From contig NZ_CP048114.1 in NCBI RefSeq assembly GCF_010093025.1, forward strand, positions 1,798,001 to 1,862,000: a DNA stretch of 64,000 bases, read 5' to 3'. This document shows positions 32,061 through 38,304 of this stretch, one piece after another. Made by a program: the position numbers and the translations under genes. The first letter of the stretch is position 1; the number at the start of each line of letters is the position of its first letter. The notes under the pieces are model-generated. The model saw only the letters and a list, made by a program, of their open reading frames with translations, had not been told where the DNA came from and made no database searches. Source of the stretch: Edaphobacter sp. 12200R-103 (GTDB lineage Bacteria > Acidobacteriota > Terriglobia > Terriglobales > Acidobacteriaceae).

Positions 32061-33611
32061 TTACTTTGCAGCGACCTGATCCGGAAGCGCCCACGCAAAC
32101 ATCACGCCGCCACTACCAATCAGCACATACTGCTTCCCATCCAGCTCATAACTAATGGGCGAGCTCGCGATCATCGATCCCGTATAGGCATGCCACAGCG
32201 TCTTCCCATTCGCCGTGTCCAAGGCAAGCGCGTTTCCGTGAGAATCGCCGGTGAATGTCACGCCCGAACCGGTCGTCAGCGCGCCCGCACTCGCGCTGTT
32301 GCCGATATCGTGCGTCCAGCGGACTTTACCCGTCTGGTAATCGATCGCCTTAACGACTCCCTTCGCCCAGAGACCATAGTCCGCACCTGCCCAACCGTAG
32401 TCCCCGTCAGCCGGTTTCGAGAAGTAGATGCTATAAGCCTCGCGCGCCGGGATTATAAAAAGACCCGTCTTGGGATCGAAGCTCGGCGAGCGATAGTTTG
32501 CTGCTCCGGCCTCGTCCGGTGCGATCAGGCGGCCGTCGGGCGTCGGCTCTTTTGCAGGATTCGGTATCGGCCGACCGTCTTTGTCGATCCCCAGCGACCA
32601 GTTCACCGGGCTGTACGGAACTGTCAGCAGGCTCTTGCCGTTGGTCCGGTCCAGCACGAAGAAATATCCATTGCGAGATGCCTGCATCAGCATCTTGCGT
32701 TGCTGTCCCTTGAACATGCCATCGACCAGCATCGGTGTCTCCGCTGCATCCCAGTCATGCGTGTCATGCGGAGAGACCTGGAACGCCCACGCCAGTTTCC
32801 CGGTATCCGGATTCAGCGCCACGATGCTGCAGGTATTGGCATTGTCCCCCGGACGCGTCTTCCCATTAAGCACGGGCGTCGGATTGCCTGTGCCCCAGTA
32901 GATCAGGTTCAGATCGGGATCATAGGTCCCCGTCATCCAGGTCATGCCGCCGGTCAGCTCTTTCGGCGTGCTGTACCACTCCCACTGCAGCTTGCCTGTC
33001 TCAGGATCGAGCGACTTCAGGTATCCGTGCAGATTGTCGAAGTCTCCAGAGACGCCGACGATGACGTGGTTCCCAACCACAAACGGCGACATCGTCGTCC
33101 AATACCCCTTGGCGACATCGGCGACCTCGATATTCCAGCGCAGCGCTCCGGTCTTCGCGTCCAGCGAGACCAGGTGGCCATCCGGTGAAAGGAAGTAGAT
33201 CCAGCCCTTATAGGCGCCCACGCCACGCTGGCCGATGTGCAGCCCTTTATTTGGGGGATACGTGTAATGCCACACCATGTGTCCCGACCGCGCATCCACA
33301 GCCCACACATGATCAGGGACCGTGAAGTACAGGATGCCGTCAATCAGCAGCGGCGACGACTTCAGCCCCGCCTGCGATCCGGTCTGAAACGCCCATGCCA
33401 GACTCAGATTATGAACATTCTGAGGCGTGATCTGGGTCAGCTTGCTGTGCCGCTGCCCGGTGTAATCGCCGTGATACAGCGGCCAGCTGTCCGGCCCCGG
33501 ATTCAGCAGCGTCGCATGATCGGGACCCTGTGCAGCAGCAAATCCTCCAACCCCAAGCACGAGCGCAAGCAGAGACCCCGCAAGCACACTCGCATCCTTC
33601 CATCGACTCAT
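32061..33611 (-). CDS. PQQ-dependent quinoprotein dehydrogenase (beta-propeller)
   Basis: This is a 516-residue exported enzyme with a signal peptide (about residues 9-28, ending AAAQG). It carries repeated propeller blades of the quinoprotein alcohol dehydrogenase type: WPLYHGDYTGQRHSKLTQI, VWAVDARSGHMVWHY, LVSLDAKTGALRWNIEV, SLDPETGKLQWEW, IVALNPDTGKLAWAFQVSPH (followed by DTHDWDAAETP), and IDYQTGKVRWTHDI. DTHDWD and NRDVDL-like strands are typical of PQQ enzymes; I did not find the adjacent-Cys ring of methanol dehydrogenase. It probably oxidises an alcohol or sugar in the periplasm and passes electrons to the diheme cytochrome c encoded 26 bases upstream. No PQQ biosynthesis genes are in the window. 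Confidence 0.85.
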   Translation of the reverse strand: MSRWKDASVLAGSLLALVLGVGGFAAAQGPDHATLLNPGPDSWPLYHGDYTGQRHSKLTQITPQNVHNLSLAWAFQTGSQAGLKSSPLLIDGILYFTVPDHVWAVDARSGHMVWHYTYPPNKGLHIGQRGVGAYKGWIYFLSPDGHLVSLDAKTGALRWNIEVADVAKGYWTTMSPFVVGNHVIVGVSGDFDNLHGYLKSLDPETGKLQWEWYSTPKELTGGMTWMTGTYDPDLNLIYWGTGNPTPVLNGKTRPGDNANTCSIVALNPDTGKLAWAFQVSPHDTHDWDAAETPMLVDGMFKGQQRKMLMQASRNGYFFVLDRTNGKSLLTVPYSPVNWSLGIDKDGRPIPNPAKEPTPDGRLIAPDEAGAANYRSPSFDPKTGLFIIPAREAYSIYFSKPADGDYGWAGADYGLWAKGVVKAIDYQTGKVRWTHDIGNSASAGALTTGSGVTFTGDSHGNALALDTANGKTLWHAYTGSMIASSPISYELDGKQYVLIGSGGVMFAWALPDQVAAK

Positions 33612-33637
33612 AGCACTCTTCCTTCTTTTGAACGCGA

Positions 33638-34441
33638 TCAGCGCAGCGTCTGTATATACGCCATCAGGTTGTGGATGTCGTCATCCGTATATTTGCTGAA
33701 GAGCTCGGCATGCGCTTCCTGCGGAGCATCGATCTTGTACTTGATCTTCCCCACCGGCCAGGAGCGGTAAGTTCCATCCGCCAGCACAATCCCCAACGTG
33801 AACTCGTCGTGGTACTCCACCCGGCCCTGCAGCACCTTGCCCGTGGGCAGGGTCACCGTGGCCGCGCTCTTGGCATTGCGCGGATAGAGCATATGCTGCT
33901 CCAGCTGCAGCCCCTGGTACTTGCTGGCGACATGCGCCAGATCGCCGGTCGCGGAGTGGCACTTCGAGCACGTTCCTGCGCCCTCGAAGTATCGCTTGCC
34001 TGCCTCCACGTTCCCAGTCTGCAGATCGGCGACATCAACGCCTTTCCGTTTTCCGGCCGCCGCAGCCTTGGCCTGCTGGGCGTGAATGAAGGCCGCCAGA
34101 TCGTTCATCTCCGCTGCGGAAACATCAAACGGCGGCATCTTTCCCGGCCTTCCGTTGCGGACGACATCGCCGATCTTGTCCCCGTTCACGTCGTCCTGGA
34201 CCAGCTTCGACCGTGTCAGGTCCGGACCGGTCTCGCCGCCGGCGGCATCCCGGCCGTGGCAAAACGCGCACTTCTGCTGAAACTGCGTGTTGCCCGCTTC
34301 GATATGCGCCGCCATCTCCGGCGTTTGCGGTTTTGCAGCCTGCCCTTCGGCCGTGTAGGGAGAAAATCCGCTCCCCATCCATAGAATCCCTGCCAGAGTT
34401 CCCCACAGCAACACCGAACTTCGCATCGTTGTCTTTTCCAT
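33638..34441 (-). CDS. Diheme c-type cytochrome
   Basis: This is a 267-residue exported cytochrome. A signal peptide (about residues 7-33) is followed by two heme-binding sites, CAFCH (58-62, with Met in GKMPPF as likely sixth ligand) and CSKCH (158-162). The second domain carries an insertion (about 190-245, LPTGKVLQGRVEYHDEFTLG) before the last cytochrome helix DDIHNLMAYIQTLR. The insertion resembles those found in acidobacterial cytochromes paired with quinoproteins. It is the first gene of the unit, followed after 26 bases by the PQQ-type dehydrogenase, for which it is the obvious electron acceptor. The gene is divergent from blaI. Confidence 0.9.
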   Translation of the reverse strand: MEKTTMRSSVLLWGTLAGILWMGSGFSPYTAEGQAAKPQTPEMAAHIEAGNTQFQQKCAFCHGRDAAGGETGPDLTRSKLVQDDVNGDKIGDVVRNGRPGKMPPFDVSAAEMNDLAAFIHAQQAKAAAAGKRKGVDVADLQTGNVEAGKRYFEGAGTCSKCHSATGDLAHVASKYQGLQLEQHMLYPRNAKSAATVTLPTGKVLQGRVEYHDEFTLGIVLADGTYRSWPVGKIKYKIDAPQEAHAELFSKYTDDDIHNLMAYIQTLR

Positions 34442-34604
34442 TCCCTGCCTGTACCGGCAGAAGAGAACGTATCCTCTTCTGCCATGAATTTATCTGCCCC
34501 CGGATCGTCCCTCTGGACTCTTGCCACCGGAAGAAGCGGGTGTTTTTTCGGCTCAGAAAATATATCAGGACGCATGCTTCGCGTTGAACCAAAAATCACC
34601 GCGA

Positions 34605-34618
34605 CGGATATTTATCCG
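34605..34618. promoter_or_regulatory. Perfect palindrome between cytochrome c and blaI
   Basis: CGGATA-TT-TATCCG is a perfect 14-base inverted repeat in the 233-base divergent region. It differs in sequence from the blaI operator candidate 18 bases further on, so a second regulator could be involved. No binding protein is evident. Confidence 0.3.
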
Positions 34619-34635
34619 CTAATCCAGCGATTTGC

Positions 34636-34653
34636 TAACTAATTTATTAGTTA
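34636..34653. promoter_or_regulatory. Candidate BlaI operator upstream of blaI
   Basis: TAACTAAT-TT-ATTAGTTA is a perfect 18-base palindrome ending 21 bases before the blaI start. BlaI/MecI repressors bind such dyads as dimers and repress their own operon. A copy matching 16 of 18 bases lies at 36432-36449 in htrA. Confidence 0.7.
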
Positions 34654-34674
34654 CACGTCCATCCATACAGGACG

Positions 34675-35067
34675 ATGCCGCCGAGACGATCCAACACGTT
34701 GACGGAAGCCGAGCTTCGATTGATGAAGATTCTCTGGGACCGTGGAGAATCCGCGGTCTCGGATCTTGTCGCCGAACTCTCGGATGCAACTCCGCTGGCC
34801 TATACCTCTGTCCTAACCACTGTCCGAATCCTTGAAAAGAAAGGATATGTGACCCACCGTCAGGAAGGCCGCGCCTTCCTCTACAGCCCGAGCGTGGCCG
34901 AGCATGATGCGGGCCGCAGCGAGGTCCGGCAACTCCTGCAACGCTTCTTCGGCAACTCGCGCGAGAAGCTGCTGCTCTCCCTTCTGGGCGACGACGATAT
35001 CTCGCCCGAAGAGCTCAGAAAGCTCAAAGAAGCCATCGCCAATACTCCCGAAGAGGAGGTTCGATAG
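34675..35067 (+). CDS. BlaI/MecI/CopY family repressor
   Basis: This is a 130-residue winged-helix repressor: LTEAELRLMKILWDRGESAV, YTSVLTTVRILEKKGYVTHRQ (recognition helix and wing), then a helical dimerisation part (about 85-130). In beta-lactamase and PBP2a systems the homologue is inactivated by proteolysis after the partner BlaR1 or MecR1 senses a beta-lactam. Here an M56 metallopeptidase follows immediately, with ATG directly after the TAG stop, reproducing the BlaI-BlaR1 pair. No beta-lactamase is nearby; the third gene is an HtrA protease. ATG at 34675 is the natural start. A palindromic operator candidate lies just upstream. Confidence 0.92.
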   Translation: MPPRRSNTLTEAELRLMKILWDRGESAVSDLVAELSDATPLAYTSVLTTVRILEKKGYVTHRQEGRAFLYSPSVAEHDAGRSEVRQLLQRFFGNSREKLLLSLLGDDDISPEELRKLKEAIANTPEEEVR

Positions 35068-36387
35068 ATGTTGGAGCATCTCACCCACACGATTCTGCTG
35101 CTCTCTGCCACAGCCTCCAGCTCCCTGGTGAACGCTGTCGCACAAGGGCTCTGCCTGGCTGCTATCGTCGCTCTCTGCCTTCGCCTTCTTCCTGGAATCA
35201 AACCTGCGGCACGCTTTGTCATCTGGCTCTCCGTCCTCTTTACCGTTCTCGCCCTTCACCTGGAATCGGGTACCAGGAGCAGCACAGATGCTTCGTTCGC
35301 AGCTGGCGTGCCTTCCTTTCATCTTGATCCTCGCTGGGGCATCCCGATCGCTGCTATCTGGTTTGCAATGTCCATGGGGCGCGCGGTAGCGCTTGTCAGG
35401 AGCGCCCTCGATCTCCGCCGTGTCGCAAAATCCGCTACCCCGGTCGTTACCGGCAACGAGTTTCAGCATCTGCTTAAGACACGCTTTCGCGCGGCTCAGC
35501 TATGCACGTCGACCCAGGTTGACCGCCCCAGTGTTGCCGGCTTCTTCCATCCCAGGGTTCTGTTGCCCGAGGATCTTCTGCAGAAGCTTTCCTCGCAGGA
35601 GCTTGAGCAGATCATCCTGCACGAGATGGAACACCTTCGCCGCTTCGACGACTGGACCAATCTCCTGCAGAAGGTGGCATTGGTCTTCTTTCCTCTCAAT
35701 CCAGTTCTGTTCTGGATCGAACAACGCCTTTGCAGGGAGCGCGAGCTTGCCTGCGACGACTGTGTGCTCAGCTTTACGGCAGCGCGCAAAAGCTACGCTA
35801 CCTGCCTGACCAGCCTCGCCGAACACGCTCTTGTGTGCCGTGGCATCACTCTCGCGCTCGGGGCCTGGGAGAAACAGTCTGAGCTCTCCCGCCGGGTTCG
35901 TCGCATCCTCGACAAACCCGAAGTCCGGCTTAAACCCGTCACTGCGAATGTAATTACAGGAGTGGTCATCGCCGGTCTGCTTGGCGGCGCGGCCACGCTC
36001 GCTCACACGCCAGAGCTGGTCAGCTTCACACCGGAGGCGGTTGCGAACGCTATTCCTTCAGCATCGATCCCAGCATCGATCGTTGCTGCGACCGAAGCTC
36101 CCGAGAGTGCGTTACCCATGAGAAATCTCTCTCCGGAGCTTGTCAAAGCGGTCGTTCCAGACAGGCAGGAGAACATAGCTACGCATCGCCCGGCGCCGCG
36201 CCATCACACGCGGGTCGTGAAGGCACTTCACCAGACTCCAGAACCGCAACCACCGCAGCAGTGGGTCGTGCTTACACGCTGGCAGGCTCGCGCTGTTCCG
36301 CAGCGGCCTGTCCTCGCCGTCTCTGAGACAGGAAATTCATATGCCGCCGTTCCCGTGGGGAATGGCTGGCTGATCATTCAACTCTAA
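35068..36387 (+). CDS. M56 family (BlaR1-like) membrane metallopeptidase
   Basis: This is a 439-residue integral membrane zinc peptidase. Transmembrane helices lie at about residues 5-25, 27-42, 48-64 and 92-106, and another at about 292-310 (VITGVVIAGLLGGAATLA). The cytoplasmic peptidase loop holds HEMEH (185-189), with FPLNPVLFWIEQRLCRERE-like family sequence following (ERELACDD supplies the third ligand Glu). The C-terminal extracytoplasmic tail of about 130 residues is Pro-rich and ends VGNGWLIIQL. It lacks the penicillin-binding transpeptidase domain of true BlaR1, so the sensed signal is probably not a bound beta-lactam. The start codon abuts the blaI stop, so the two are translationally coupled. 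Confidence 0.88.
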   Translation: MLEHLTHTILLLSATASSSLVNAVAQGLCLAAIVALCLRLLPGIKPAARFVIWLSVLFTVLALHLESGTRSSTDASFAAGVPSFHLDPRWGIPIAAIWFAMSMGRAVALVRSALDLRRVAKSATPVVTGNEFQHLLKTRFRAAQLCTSTQVDRPSVAGFFHPRVLLPEDLLQKLSSQELEQIILHEMEHLRRFDDWTNLLQKVALVFFPLNPVLFWIEQRLCRERELACDDCVLSFTAARKSYATCLTSLAEHALVCRGITLALGAWEKQSELSRRVRRILDKPEVRLKPVTANVITGVVIAGLLGGAATLAHTPELVSFTPEAVANAIPSASIPASIVAATEAPESALPMRNLSPELVKAVVPDRQENIATHRPAPRHHTRVVKALHQTPEPQPPQQWVVLTRWQARAVPQRPVLAVSETGNSYAAVPVGNGWLIIQL

Positions 36388-36421
36388 AATCTCACCACTT
36401 TGCACATAGGAGCCGCAGAAC

Positions 36422-37948
36422 ATGTCACCAATAACTAATAAATTAGTAGCTAAGGCCAAAAAACTGGCTGTCCCTGCAGCCCTGGCAGGTAGCTTTGCCC
36501 TGGGAGCTGCTCTCTTTGTCGGCAGTGGTGGAGTGCACGCAGCCGCCGCTTTCAGCGCCTCTCCCATCGATGACAACAGCGTCTCCGCACTGACGGCGCT
36601 CGATCATGCAATGGAGACCGTAGCTGCTCGTGTCACCCCTGCGGTCGTCAACATTGCAGTTACCAGCAAAGGCGGCCATGAGACTTCCGACAACTCTGAC
36701 AACCAATTGCAGGGTCTTCCTCCCGGATTCGCACAGTTCTTCGGTCAGGGGATGCCGCAGCAGCCGCAGATCGAGCACGGTATTGGCAGCGGCGTCATCA
36801 TCTCGCCCGACGGCTACATCGTCACGAACAATCACGTCGTCGACGGCGCCACCGAGATCAAGGTAACCCTCAACGATCGCCGCGTGCTCTCCGGCAAGGT
36901 CATCGGGACCGACAAGCTGACTGATCTTGCGGTCGTCAAAGTGAACGCAACCAACCTTCCCAGCATCGCCTGGGGCGATTCCAGCAAGCTGCATCCCGGT
37001 CAGACGGTGCTCGCCTTTGGAAGTCCGTTCGGCTACTTCCAGTTCTCGGTCACTCGCGGAATCGTCAGCGCAGTCGATCGCCCCAATCCCTACTCCGACG
37101 ATCCACGCAAACCCGGCGGCTTTATCCAGACCGACGCCGCCATCAATCCTGGAAACTCCGGCGGCGCGCTGGTCAACTCGCACGGTGAGCTGGTCGGAAT
37201 CAATACTTTCATCATCTCCAACAGCGGCTCCTTCGCCGGTGCAGGGTTTGCAATTCCCTCGCAGATCGTTCGTTCCACCGCCGAGCAGTTGATGAAGAAC
37301 GGTCATGTCGATCATGGCTATCTGGGCATCAGCCTCAACGATGTCACGCCTGCCAATGCCCACTTTTTCAACCTGAAAGATGCGAGCGGCGCCATCGTCT
37401 CGCAGGTCACGCCCAACTCGCCCGCAAGCAAGGGCGGAGTTCATAGGGGTGACGTCATCACTTCCATCAACGGCCAGAAGGTCGTCAACGGCAGCGCCCT
37501 TCAGGTCGCTGTAAGCCAGATCACCCCGGGAAGCAACATATCGCTCGGCGTCCTGCGTGACGGCAAGCCGACCACGCTCAACATCACCGTTGGGCAATTC
37601 CAGAAGAATACCGACCTGGCGGACAACGGCGACAGTGGCTCTCAGAAAAGAGGGAAGCTCGGGCTGGGCGTAAGCGATCTCACCTCCGACGTCAGACAGC
37701 AGATCAATGCTCCTGACCAGCTCAACGGAGCCGTCGTTCAGAATGTCCGCCCTGGCAGTCCCGCAGACGATGCCGGCCTCCAGCCGGGCGACGTCATCCT
37801 TGAGGTAAATCGTCACCCAGTCGCATCGGCAAGCCAGTTCGTCGATCAGGTCCATCAGAACCCGGATGGAAAGGACCTCCTCCTCCTGGTCTGGTCCAAG
37901 GGAAATTCAAGCTACCGCACGATCCACCCGGCCGAGCAGAACGGCTAA
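36422..37948 (+). CDS. HtrA/DegP family periplasmic serine protease
   Basis: This is a 508-residue Do-type protease that degrades or refolds damaged envelope proteins. A basic then hydrophobic N-terminus (about residues 7-40) exports or anchors it. The trypsin-like domain shows the triad H138 (IVTNNHVVDG), D168 (KLTDLAVVK) and S246 (NPGNSGGAL). Two PDZ domains follow (about 295-390, with YLGISLNDV and GVHRGDVITSINGQ; 410-500, with LGLGVSDLT and GLQPGDVILEVNR). ATG at 36422 has AGGAG nine bases upstream. The gene lies 34 bases after the M56 gene. Codons 4-10 contain a copy of the palindrome found before blaI, suggesting direct control by the BlaI-type repressor. A terminator follows. Confidence 0.93.
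   Translation: MSPITNKLVAKAKKLAVPAALAGSFALGAALFVGSGGVHAAAAFSASPIDDNSVSALTALDHAMETVAARVTPAVVNIAVTSKGGHETSDNSDNQLQGLPPGFAQFFGQGMPQQPQIEHGIGSGVIISPDGYIVTNNHVVDGATEIKVTLNDRRVLSGKVIGTDKLTDLAVVKVNATNLPSIAWGDSSKLHPGQTVLAFGSPFGYFQFSVTRGIVSAVDRPNPYSDDPRKPGGFIQTDAAINPGNSGGALVNSHGELVGINTFIISNSGSFAGAGFAIPSQIVRSTAEQLMKNGHVDHGYLGISLNDVTPANAHFFNLKDASGAIVSQVTPNSPASKGGVHRGDVITSINGQKVVNGSALQVAVSQITPGSNISLGVLRDGKPTTLNITVGQFQKNTDLADNGDSGSQKRGKLGLGVSDLTSDVRQQINAPDQLNGAVVQNVRPGSPADDAGLQPGDVILEVNRHPVASASQFVDQVHQNPDGKDLLLLVWSKGNSSYRTIHPAEQNG
36432..36449. promoter_or_regulatory. Second copy of the BlaI operator, inside htrA
   Basis: TAACTAAT-AA-ATTAGTAG covers codons 4-10 of htrA. Read on the other strand, it matches the palindrome at 34636-34653 at 16 of 18 positions. 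Location just past the start codon would let a bound repressor block elongation or a nearby promoter. Confidence 0.6.
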
Positions 37949-37967
37949 AACAATCTCACAAAGAACC

Positions 37968-38001
37968 GAGGCCATCGTCGATGACGATGGCCTCCTCTTT
38001 T
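37968..38001 (+). terminator. Rho-independent terminator after htrA
   Basis: GAGGCCATCGTC (37968-37979) and GACGATGGCCTC (37983-37994) form a perfect 12-base stem with a 3-base loop, followed by CTCTTTT. It sits 20 bases past the htrA stop. Confidence 0.88.
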
Positions 38002-38037
38002 GCTGCCCTACCTTCAATCTTCTCCTCCACAAGAATA

Positions 38038-38096
38038 AAGTGCCATCCTGAGCGGAGCTACTCGAGTTTCATCGCGAGTAGCGCAGGATGACACTT
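38038..38096. repeat. Intergenic inverted repeat with the ATCCTGA core
   Basis: AAGTG-CCATCCTG...GCTACTCG and its complement CGAGTAGC...CAGGATG-ACACTT form imperfect 23-29-base arms around a short loop. The outer motif (A)TCATCCTG is shared with the repeat at 29612-29711. The rest of the 303-base stretch from 38002 to 38304, between convergent htrA and the efflux outer-membrane gene, holds no gene I can support. Confidence 0.6.
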
Positions 38097-38304
38097 CTAA
38101 AGAAGAAGTTGGAAAACTGGACCGTCGCTCATTGGCCCATCCGAGTTCCGGGTGCCCACATCTCAATTTTGGAATGTGGGCTCCTTCGAGCGAAGCTTGA
38201 ACCGCTCGCCAGGGGTAAGGCTTCAGAGCCAATCCTGAGTACAGCCGGGAAAGCCGCATCACTGATGCCATCCGCGACTCGCCCATCGAGTGACAACCCC
38301 TAAA

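Follow-up and report, generated by a model that had tools for sequence, protein, structure and literature searches.

A probable blaI–M56–htrA operon in Edaphobacter and its relatives with a second candidate BlaI operator in the first codons of htrA

We analyzed a 64,000-nucleotide stretch of DNA from Edaphobacter sp. 12200R-103 (contig NZ_CP048114.1, positions 1,798,001 to 1,862,000; hereafter the window, whose numbering is used throughout), in which a repressor gene, a membrane peptidase gene and a protease gene follow one another on the + strand in the order blaI, M56, htrA, with one palindrome before blaI (O1) and a near copy of it inside the start of htrA (O2). blaI (34675–35067) encodes a BlaI/MecI-family repressor of 130 amino acids, the M56 metallopeptidase gene (35068–36387) a BlaR1-type protein of 439 amino acids with HEMEH at residues 185–189, and htrA (36422–37948) a Do-family serine protease of 508 amino acids with two PDZ stretches. 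The blaI product matched PF03965 in Pfam (E 1.5e-31, 109.6 bits, residues 9–122 of 130), and its relatives by sequence in the Protein Data Bank (PDB) are BlaI (1p6r and 1sd4) and MecI (1okr); it scored below the cut-offs of the NCBIfam models specific for BlaI, MecI and CopY. Its segment LAY[TN]SVLTT[IV]RILE, nearly invariant among 18 orthologues, is by position the putative recognition-helix region. HtrA reached 456 bits against TIGR02037 of NCBIfam (cut-off 416) and matched the Trypsin_2 and PDZ families of Pfam; its N-terminus looks signal-like by eye, and its periplasmic location is putative.

O1 (TAACTAATTTATTAGTTA, 34636–34653, unstranded) is an exact 18-bp palindrome that ends 21 nt before the blaI ATG, as had been described, and is the probable blaI operator. 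O2 (TAACTAATAAATTAGTAG, 36432–36449, unstranded) occupies codons 4–10 of htrA, with its core in codons 5–9. The original prediction had given it as matching the palindrome at 16 of 18 bases, which holds against the reverse complement of O1, the direct register giving 14 of 18. That nothing similar occurs elsewhere in the window was also correct: a search allowing up to three mismatches found O1 and O2 only (maximum of 0 in 100 shuffles). Extending the search to the genome, scanned as a single contig of 4,554,841 bases, bore out the pairing of the two sites in part: at up to three mismatches the palindrome again occurred only at O1 and O2 (2 sites; reversed-pattern control, 1), but a related dyad was present at a BlaI paralogue. 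With the 14-bp core ACTAATNNATTAGT and up to two mismatches, the genome contained two exact sites (O1 and O2), none with one mismatch and 14 with two, compared with 32 sites for the reversed pattern; as a class, the two-mismatch sites are not above chance. One of these 14, CCTAATTTATTAGG, lies directly upstream of the second BlaI gene of the genome (product LAYTTVQTMLNILE), whose dyad, CTCCTAATAAATTAGGAG, immediately precedes the start codon. The core half-sites of paralogue and operon, CCTAAT and ACTAAT, differ in the outer base alone. The presence of a slightly different dyad at the paralogue therefore supports the pairing of BlaI proteins with such dyads. A chance origin of the dyads was ruled out by the shuffles, the genome scan and the conservation described below, and we consider it very probable, judging from sequence, that both dyads are BlaI operators. 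The paralogue belongs to a second BlaI-M56 pair (L033, 167–1863; genome position about 3361 kb, outside the window); by eye, the C-terminal domain of its M56 protein appears TonB-type, and a TTGACA-N17-TAATCT match stands upstream of its dyad.

Conservation of the dyads at orthologous blaI and htrA genes had been set beforehand as the test of the original prediction; both dyads proved to be kept in Acidobacteriaceae, and on this point the prediction stood. A search for the HtrA protein in 100 genomes, the window's own included, provided a window-genus set of 40 loci (the window and 39 other genomes with a strong htrA match). Two further sets comprised the best 80 loci obtained by scanning genome records with titles (Edaphobacter, Granulicella, Silvibacterium, Terracidiphilus, Acidicapsa, Occallatibacter and many metagenome-assembled genomes) and 40 loci from other genera, 35 of the window's type, in which the second dyad belongs inside htrA (in-gene type), and five with it in the spacer before htrA (spacer type). 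The order blaI-M56-htrA was kept in the 40 window-genus loci, O1 (up to two mismatches) was present in 39, and in 38 the start of the O2 core was precisely 12 nt from the A of the htrA start codon (+12); O1 and O2 are 1.8 kb apart in the window and 1776 to 2124 nt apart among the loci with both. All 80 titled-record loci had O1 and M56 as the next gene. htrA followed within 500 bp in 72 of them (of the other eight, seven end with the contig and one, L272, has masked htrA bases), and O2 (up to two mismatches) was at +12 in 68 of these 72 and elsewhere inside htrA in two more. Among the in-gene-type loci of other genera, O2 fell within htrA in 33 of 33, 32 times at +12 and once at +6; L158, which has no htrA, and L178, in which the alignment starts late and the dyad is visible, were left unscored. 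A search for BlaI gave matches in 249 of 300 genomes of the family, with a close-orthologue group in many genera.

The exact 14-bp core occurred 61 times in 40 of the 100 genomes (reversed pattern, three sites): 26 sites were O1, 31 were O2, one was the O1 of a truncated locus (G056) and three lay elsewhere. As candidates for other targets, these last three were judged unrelated or unclear. Two are ACTAATTAATTAGT palindromes upstream of a gene that by eye resembles an antitoxin gene, in G081 and G089 (L091 and L090), from another family of the class, and are either chance occurrences or sites of a different regulator. The third (L189, 3583) is in G042, a genome with no strong htrA orthologue; about 23 bp beyond it begins a gene from a multicopy family associated with soil, which we take to be of the TIGR03435 kind and which is possibly another BlaI target. 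In G061 (L089), from another family, neither blaI nor M56 was found in the stretch around the htrA match.

The second dyad has two layouts. In a sister clade of 25 loci (the spacer clade), whose BlaI proteins are 46–56% identical to that of the window, O1 was kept in all 25. In 23 of them a dyad with up to two mismatches preceded the htrA start, close to the ribosome-binding site, and none had it inside the gene; the remaining two loci have weaker dyads, by eye. An HtrA tree of 69 rows, comprising the window, 12 of the 39 other window-genus loci taken at random and other loci, contained a single branch (100/100) that splits 45 in-gene rows from 24 spacer rows; the tree was rooted at its midpoint, which leaves the direction of change open. 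L158, L177, L178 and L184 were left out because their HtrA alignment was absent or weak (<250 bits). A dyad near the htrA start is thus common to both clades despite its differing exact place, which argues for a function there. Most spacer-clade loci (L309–L328 and L184–L188) also have a GCAACC-like element about 20 bp before O1, with C at −20 in 22 of 25.

Codon usage indicated that O2 is maintained as DNA. We scanned htrA in 39 of the 40 window-genus loci, taking usage from codon 31 onward as background. Thr5 was ACT in 39 of 39 sequences (13% of Thr codons), Asn6 was AAT in 39 of 39 (usage 32%), and Leu8 was TTA in 31 and CTA in eight (usage 1% and 2%). In a rare-synonym scan of 512 htrA columns, the seven highest were codons 8, 7, 4, 9, 3, 6 and 5, with z from 17.8 to 7.0; these are precisely codons 3–9, which shows that the DNA itself is under selection. 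In the sister clade, where the dyad lies outside the gene, codons 2–10 reached at most z 5.3 (25 sequences compared with 39, z growing with sequence number), and the motif T-N-x-L-V was not found at the O2 position of its htrA. There is a general early-codon effect, and the fixed rare codons at O2 are well beyond it. It seems that the beginning of the HtrA signal segment, where changes in protein sequence are well tolerated, accommodates the DNA site. A single column elsewhere in the locus also stands out: the penultimate Gln codon of M56 (36379–36381) is CAA in 34 of 40 orthologues despite a general preference for CAG (z 10.0), and this DNA-level bias close to the M56 stop has no evident explanation.

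O1 coincides with a promoter-like element (34634–34659, + strand) formed by GCTAAC (34634–34639), a 16-nt spacer and CGTC (34656–34659), with O1 lying over and between the boxes. CGTC followed O1 by 2–3 nt in all 39 window-genus loci with O1 (background 1.8%), and GC preceded it in 37 of the 39, whereas at O2 neither was found in any of the 40 loci. The pattern AAC-N16/17-CGTC overlapped O1 in 38 of 39 window-genus and 27 of 33 other in-gene-type loci, and AC-N16-CGTC was present in 20 of 25 spacer-clade loci, where the dyad flanks the upstream box on its opposite side (background at most 0.5% in each case). The same spacing despite a different operator register is as expected of a promoter, and on the basis of this conservation we regard the element as the promoter-like start of an operon. 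It resembles what we take to be the consensus of extracytoplasmic function (ECF) sigma factors, with an AAC-type −35 and a CGTC-type −10 spaced 16–17 nt apart. In a few loci without CGTC (L175, L179 and L185), the O1 flank forms a sigma-70 −35 box (TTGACA), by eye.

No comparable signal preceded O2. When 72 in-gene loci were aligned on O2, the 90 nt upstream exceeded 0.45 bits only at the ribosome-binding site, the ATG and neighboring bases; the ribosome-binding site of the window, read from the sequence as AGGAG (36408–36412, + strand), falls where a G/A-rich signal is conserved. Across the 40 loci, the gap between blaI and M56 is about 0 and that between M56 and htrA 26–47 nt (34 nt in the window). 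A terminator-like hairpin with a 12-bp stem follows htrA (37968–37994, + strand) and is the probable end of the operon; its stem is the longest of the five terminator-like matches in 34400–38150 (shuffles, 3.3). Folding of the 40 loci gave a mean z of −4.1 for the 90 nt after htrA and 0.2 for the M56-htrA junction (20 mononucleotide shuffles each). The small gaps point to one operon, as do the strong hairpin that follows htrA and the lack of one between M56 and htrA. Thus, blaI, M56 and htrA most likely form a single operon with one promoter that carries an operator, plus a second, promoter-less operator. Since O1 has a promoter signature and O2 has none, it is unlikely that O2 serves a separate htrA promoter in the in-gene clade.

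Layout and conservation support the original prediction of a compact BlaI/M56/HtrA regulon with two matching dyads. As an explanation of the whole, we moderately favor an autoregulated operon in which BlaI would act on O1 and as a roadblock on O2 and would be released through M56; whether O2 works by roadblock is, taken alone, an evenly balanced question. By sequence, O2 lies in a transcribed region without a promoter of its own, as a roadblock operator does. A BlaI dimer on O1 would cover the operon promoter, and a second dimer on the promoter-less O2, 1.8 kb downstream, would halt RNA polymerase that had escaped past O1, so that basal blaI and M56 expression would be maintained and htrA would be doubly repressed. 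A periplasmic signal would activate M56 and lead to inactivation of BlaI, and O1 and O2 would be cleared together; HtrA would then be made along with more sensor and repressor, and the system would reset. These BlaI and M56 steps are modeled on Staphylococcus aureus, in which BlaR1 cleaves BlaI according to the passages concerned in PMC9834060. By analogy, we infer that BlaI binds the dyads, that M56 cleaves BlaI and that the signal is envelope protein stress; the earlier suggestion that M56 senses envelope damage is plausible.

Several observations weigh against this reading. The locus sets overlap and are related by descent, and their counts are not independent. Within the window-genus set, L088 has no O1, and the two loci missing from the O2 count are L058, whose O2 has three mismatches, and L056, whose htrA start is unreadable in frame; one species (G281, L158) has blaI-M56 and an O1 with two mismatches, and no htrA orthologue. 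The rare-synonym excess is not unique to O2, as htrA codons 10, 13 and 2 reach z 6.1, 5.7 and 5.1, and single rare-synonym columns occur in blaI (z 7.2) and M56 (z 10.0). CGTC is missing in nine of the 80 titled-record loci. ECF sigma factors are often, although not universally, autoregulated from the same type of promoter. AAC-N16/17-CGTC was found upstream of none of the 27 sigma-factor matches in the genome, tested from the first possible start codon of each frame (control pattern, 3 of 27), and an ECF identity of the promoter found no support from the genome's sigma genes. The lack of a sigma-70-type match in 34400–38150 says little, shuffles averaging 1.0. Finally, a T-tract, TTTTTG, is conserved 10–15 bp before the second dyad of the spacer clade (L309–L328) and could be part of a separate htrA promoter there.

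This last point touches the reading of the original prediction, in which htrA is a separate target with its own promoter, either at the 3′ end of M56 or within the 34-nt spacer, and is controlled there through O2 as a downstream operator. The matching dyad at htrA upholds that reading in part: the second dyad keeps close to the start of htrA, in the spacer clade it lies upstream of the gene behind the conserved T-tract, and the M56 penultimate codon provides a DNA-level signal nearby. What probably does not hold is the separateness of the target, because the three genes have the layout of a single operon, no promoter signature accompanies O2 (CGTC in 0 of 40 at O2 compared with 39 of 39 at O1), and the 90 nt upstream of O2 show no promoter conservation in the 72 loci, an alignment in which varying spacer length would smear out any element placed relative to the M56 stop. 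We therefore consider an htrA promoter of this kind quite improbable. DNA looping, in which two BlaI dimers would bridge O1 and O2 over 1.8 kb with O2 as an auxiliary operator like lac O2, is our second choice after the roadblock, and still an unlikely one. It would account for two matching operators in one operon, one of them intragenic. Also in its favor, BlaI targets in Clostridium thermocellum with pairs of dyads that leave room for four protomers are described in the relevant passages of PMC8457756, but these dyads lie close together. On the other hand, the O1–O2 distance varies freely, from 1776 to 2124 nt, and we know of no contacts between distant BlaI dimers.

Two other alternatives were weighed. 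If O2 were not a DNA site, it would owe its conservation to the protein motif T-N-x-L-V or to A/T-rich early codons, and the amino acids are indeed conserved too, while other early htrA codons also use rare synonyms (z up to 6.1 outside codons 3–9 and up to 5.3 in the sister clade). Against this, rare synonyms are fixed at codons 5, 6 and 8, the seven highest columns are codons 3–9, orthologues with a spacer dyad lack the motif at this place, and the same dyad stands at O1. The fixed rare codons, the codon scan and the sister-clade control led us to reject the view that constraint on the protein or on early codons alone accounts for O2, and we give this alternative almost no credence. A different regulator might instead bind the dyads, or the BlaI paralogue might share them, as the difference of a single outer base between the core half-sites would allow. 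However, the recognition-helix segment of the orthologues differs from that of the paralogue, and among the 20 window-genus genomes in which no strong htrA orthologue occurs, 18 have no exact core, a comparison limited by four operon-bearing genomes that also lack it, their sites carrying mismatches. The remaining two of the 20 are G056, with its truncated blaI-M56 and O1, and G042, with its site elsewhere. We accordingly consider both variants of this alternative, a different regulator or sharing with the paralogue, very improbable.

We next consider the M56 protein, which matched PF05569 (E 6.4e-30, residues 93–278); the Pfam scan found no other family and nothing after residue 278. An extracellular penicillin-binding sensor domain was not found by Pfam, which bears out the description of M56 as lacking one. 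H185, E186 and H189 were invariant in 36 sequences. The top PDB match of the predicted model was S. aureus BlaR1 (8exq; Foldseek E 4.1e-7, TM-score 0.39 over the query), and the NCBIfam model blaR1_generic gave 70.6 bits, compared with a cut-off of 400. These results indicate that the protein is a BlaR1-type M56 peptidase and not a BlaR1 β-lactam sensor. Beyond its last membrane helix, about 90 low-confidence residues form a disordered linker (pLDDT nearly all below 50 over residues 331–421 of the model), followed by a conserved C-terminal tail (36340–36384, + strand; residues 425–439, YAAVPVGNGWLIIQL, ending in GWLIIQL). Mean column identity was 0.79 in the tail, 0.35 in the linker and 0.73 in the peptidase domain, and the tail was modeled with low confidence as a β-hairpin (pLDDT 54–58). 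The tail pattern stood at the extreme C-terminus of M56 in 39 of 40 window-genus, 32 of 35 other in-gene-type and none of five spacer-type loci, and in 70 of 74 titled-record loci. Frequent ends of the spacer-clade M56 proteins (L309–L328) are -SI, -KSI and -KST.

PDZ domains often read C-termini, an example in the relevant passages of PMC7593790 being DegS. We tentatively propose, as a possibility that we consider doubtful, that the M56 tail (GWLxxQL-COOH), carried on a long disordered tether, binds to the PDZ domains of HtrA and closes a periplasmic feedback loop. Free HtrA would hold the tail and keep M56 silent; misfolded envelope proteins would draw HtrA off, M56 would be released, and BlaI would be cleaved. 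The doubly blocked htrA would then be on until free HtrA rebound the tail. If true, such a loop would constitute a σE-like envelope stress circuit made of BlaI/BlaR1 parts. The case for strict coupling of tail and htrA is weakened by several loci: G281 keeps the tail without an htrA orthologue, and htrA occurs without the tail in both loci of genus g71, in the spacer clade, in L179 of g100 (a near match) and in L080, L236, L259 and L276.

The locus resembles the BlaI/BlaR1 and MecI/MecR1 systems of Gram-positive bacteria in that a BlaI-family repressor adjoins an M56 membrane peptidase with HExxH, an inverted-repeat operator precedes the repressor gene, and autoregulation is likely. It differs from them in that the extramembrane part of M56 consists of a disordered linker and a conserved tail in place of a penicillin-binding sensor, the target is htrA and not a β-lactamase or penicillin-binding protein, the half-site is ACTAAT, and a second operator lies within the target gene. 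The position of O2, a repressor site downstream of the promoter within the coding region, recalls the purB roadblock site, which is inside the gene, and lac O2, an auxiliary operator inside lacZ. Unlike these, O2 lies in the third gene of an operon, at codons 5–9 fixed across genera, and belongs to a kind of repressor controlled by proteolysis. Repression of purB by a roadblock appears in PMC4132739 as the title of a cited reference. Small autoregulated BlaI-BlaR1 operons with GACTAT/GTCTAT-type sites are described for C. thermocellum in the relevant passages of PMC8457756; the present operon is likewise small and probably autoregulated, but half-site and layout differ, and those passages mention no HtrA. 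As in the DegS-RseA-σE pathway, in which an HtrA-family periplasmic protease and regulated proteolysis couple envelope folding to transcription (PMC7593790, in the passages concerned), an HtrA protease and a proteolytic switch occur together here; by contrast, a repressor and an M56 peptidase take the place of an anti-sigma factor, and the HtrA-M56 contact is hypothetical. In the mostly non-subscription literature covered, the words BlaI and HtrA both occur in five papers (PMC12190993, PMC7016664, PMC8466686, PMC9669719 and PMC10013915), whose relevant passages mention them separately and unconnected.

All parts come from known families; what appears to be new, as far as we are aware, is the way they are combined, together with an operator that lacks a promoter and sits at fixed codons, and the tail of M56. 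BlaI-M56 pairs are mostly read as antibiotic-resistance switches, and in this family of soil bacteria such a pair is linked to a protease that serves quality control. The target carries a probable repressor site in its first codons; selection acts on this site at the level of DNA, and its two layouts, in the spacer or in the gene, fall on either side of a single branch of the HtrA tree. Such a system lends itself to studying how a repressor under proteolytic control makes use of an operator inside a gene. The tail, in turn, suggests in specific terms what an M56 peptidase without a penicillin-binding domain might sense.

The neighbors of the operon on the − strand (32061–34441) are a cytochrome c gene and a gene for a PQQ-type β-propeller dehydrogenase. 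A record titled Verrucomicrobia bacterium Tous-C9LFEB (L239) carries a blaI-M56-htrA operon, and its title is probably wrong.

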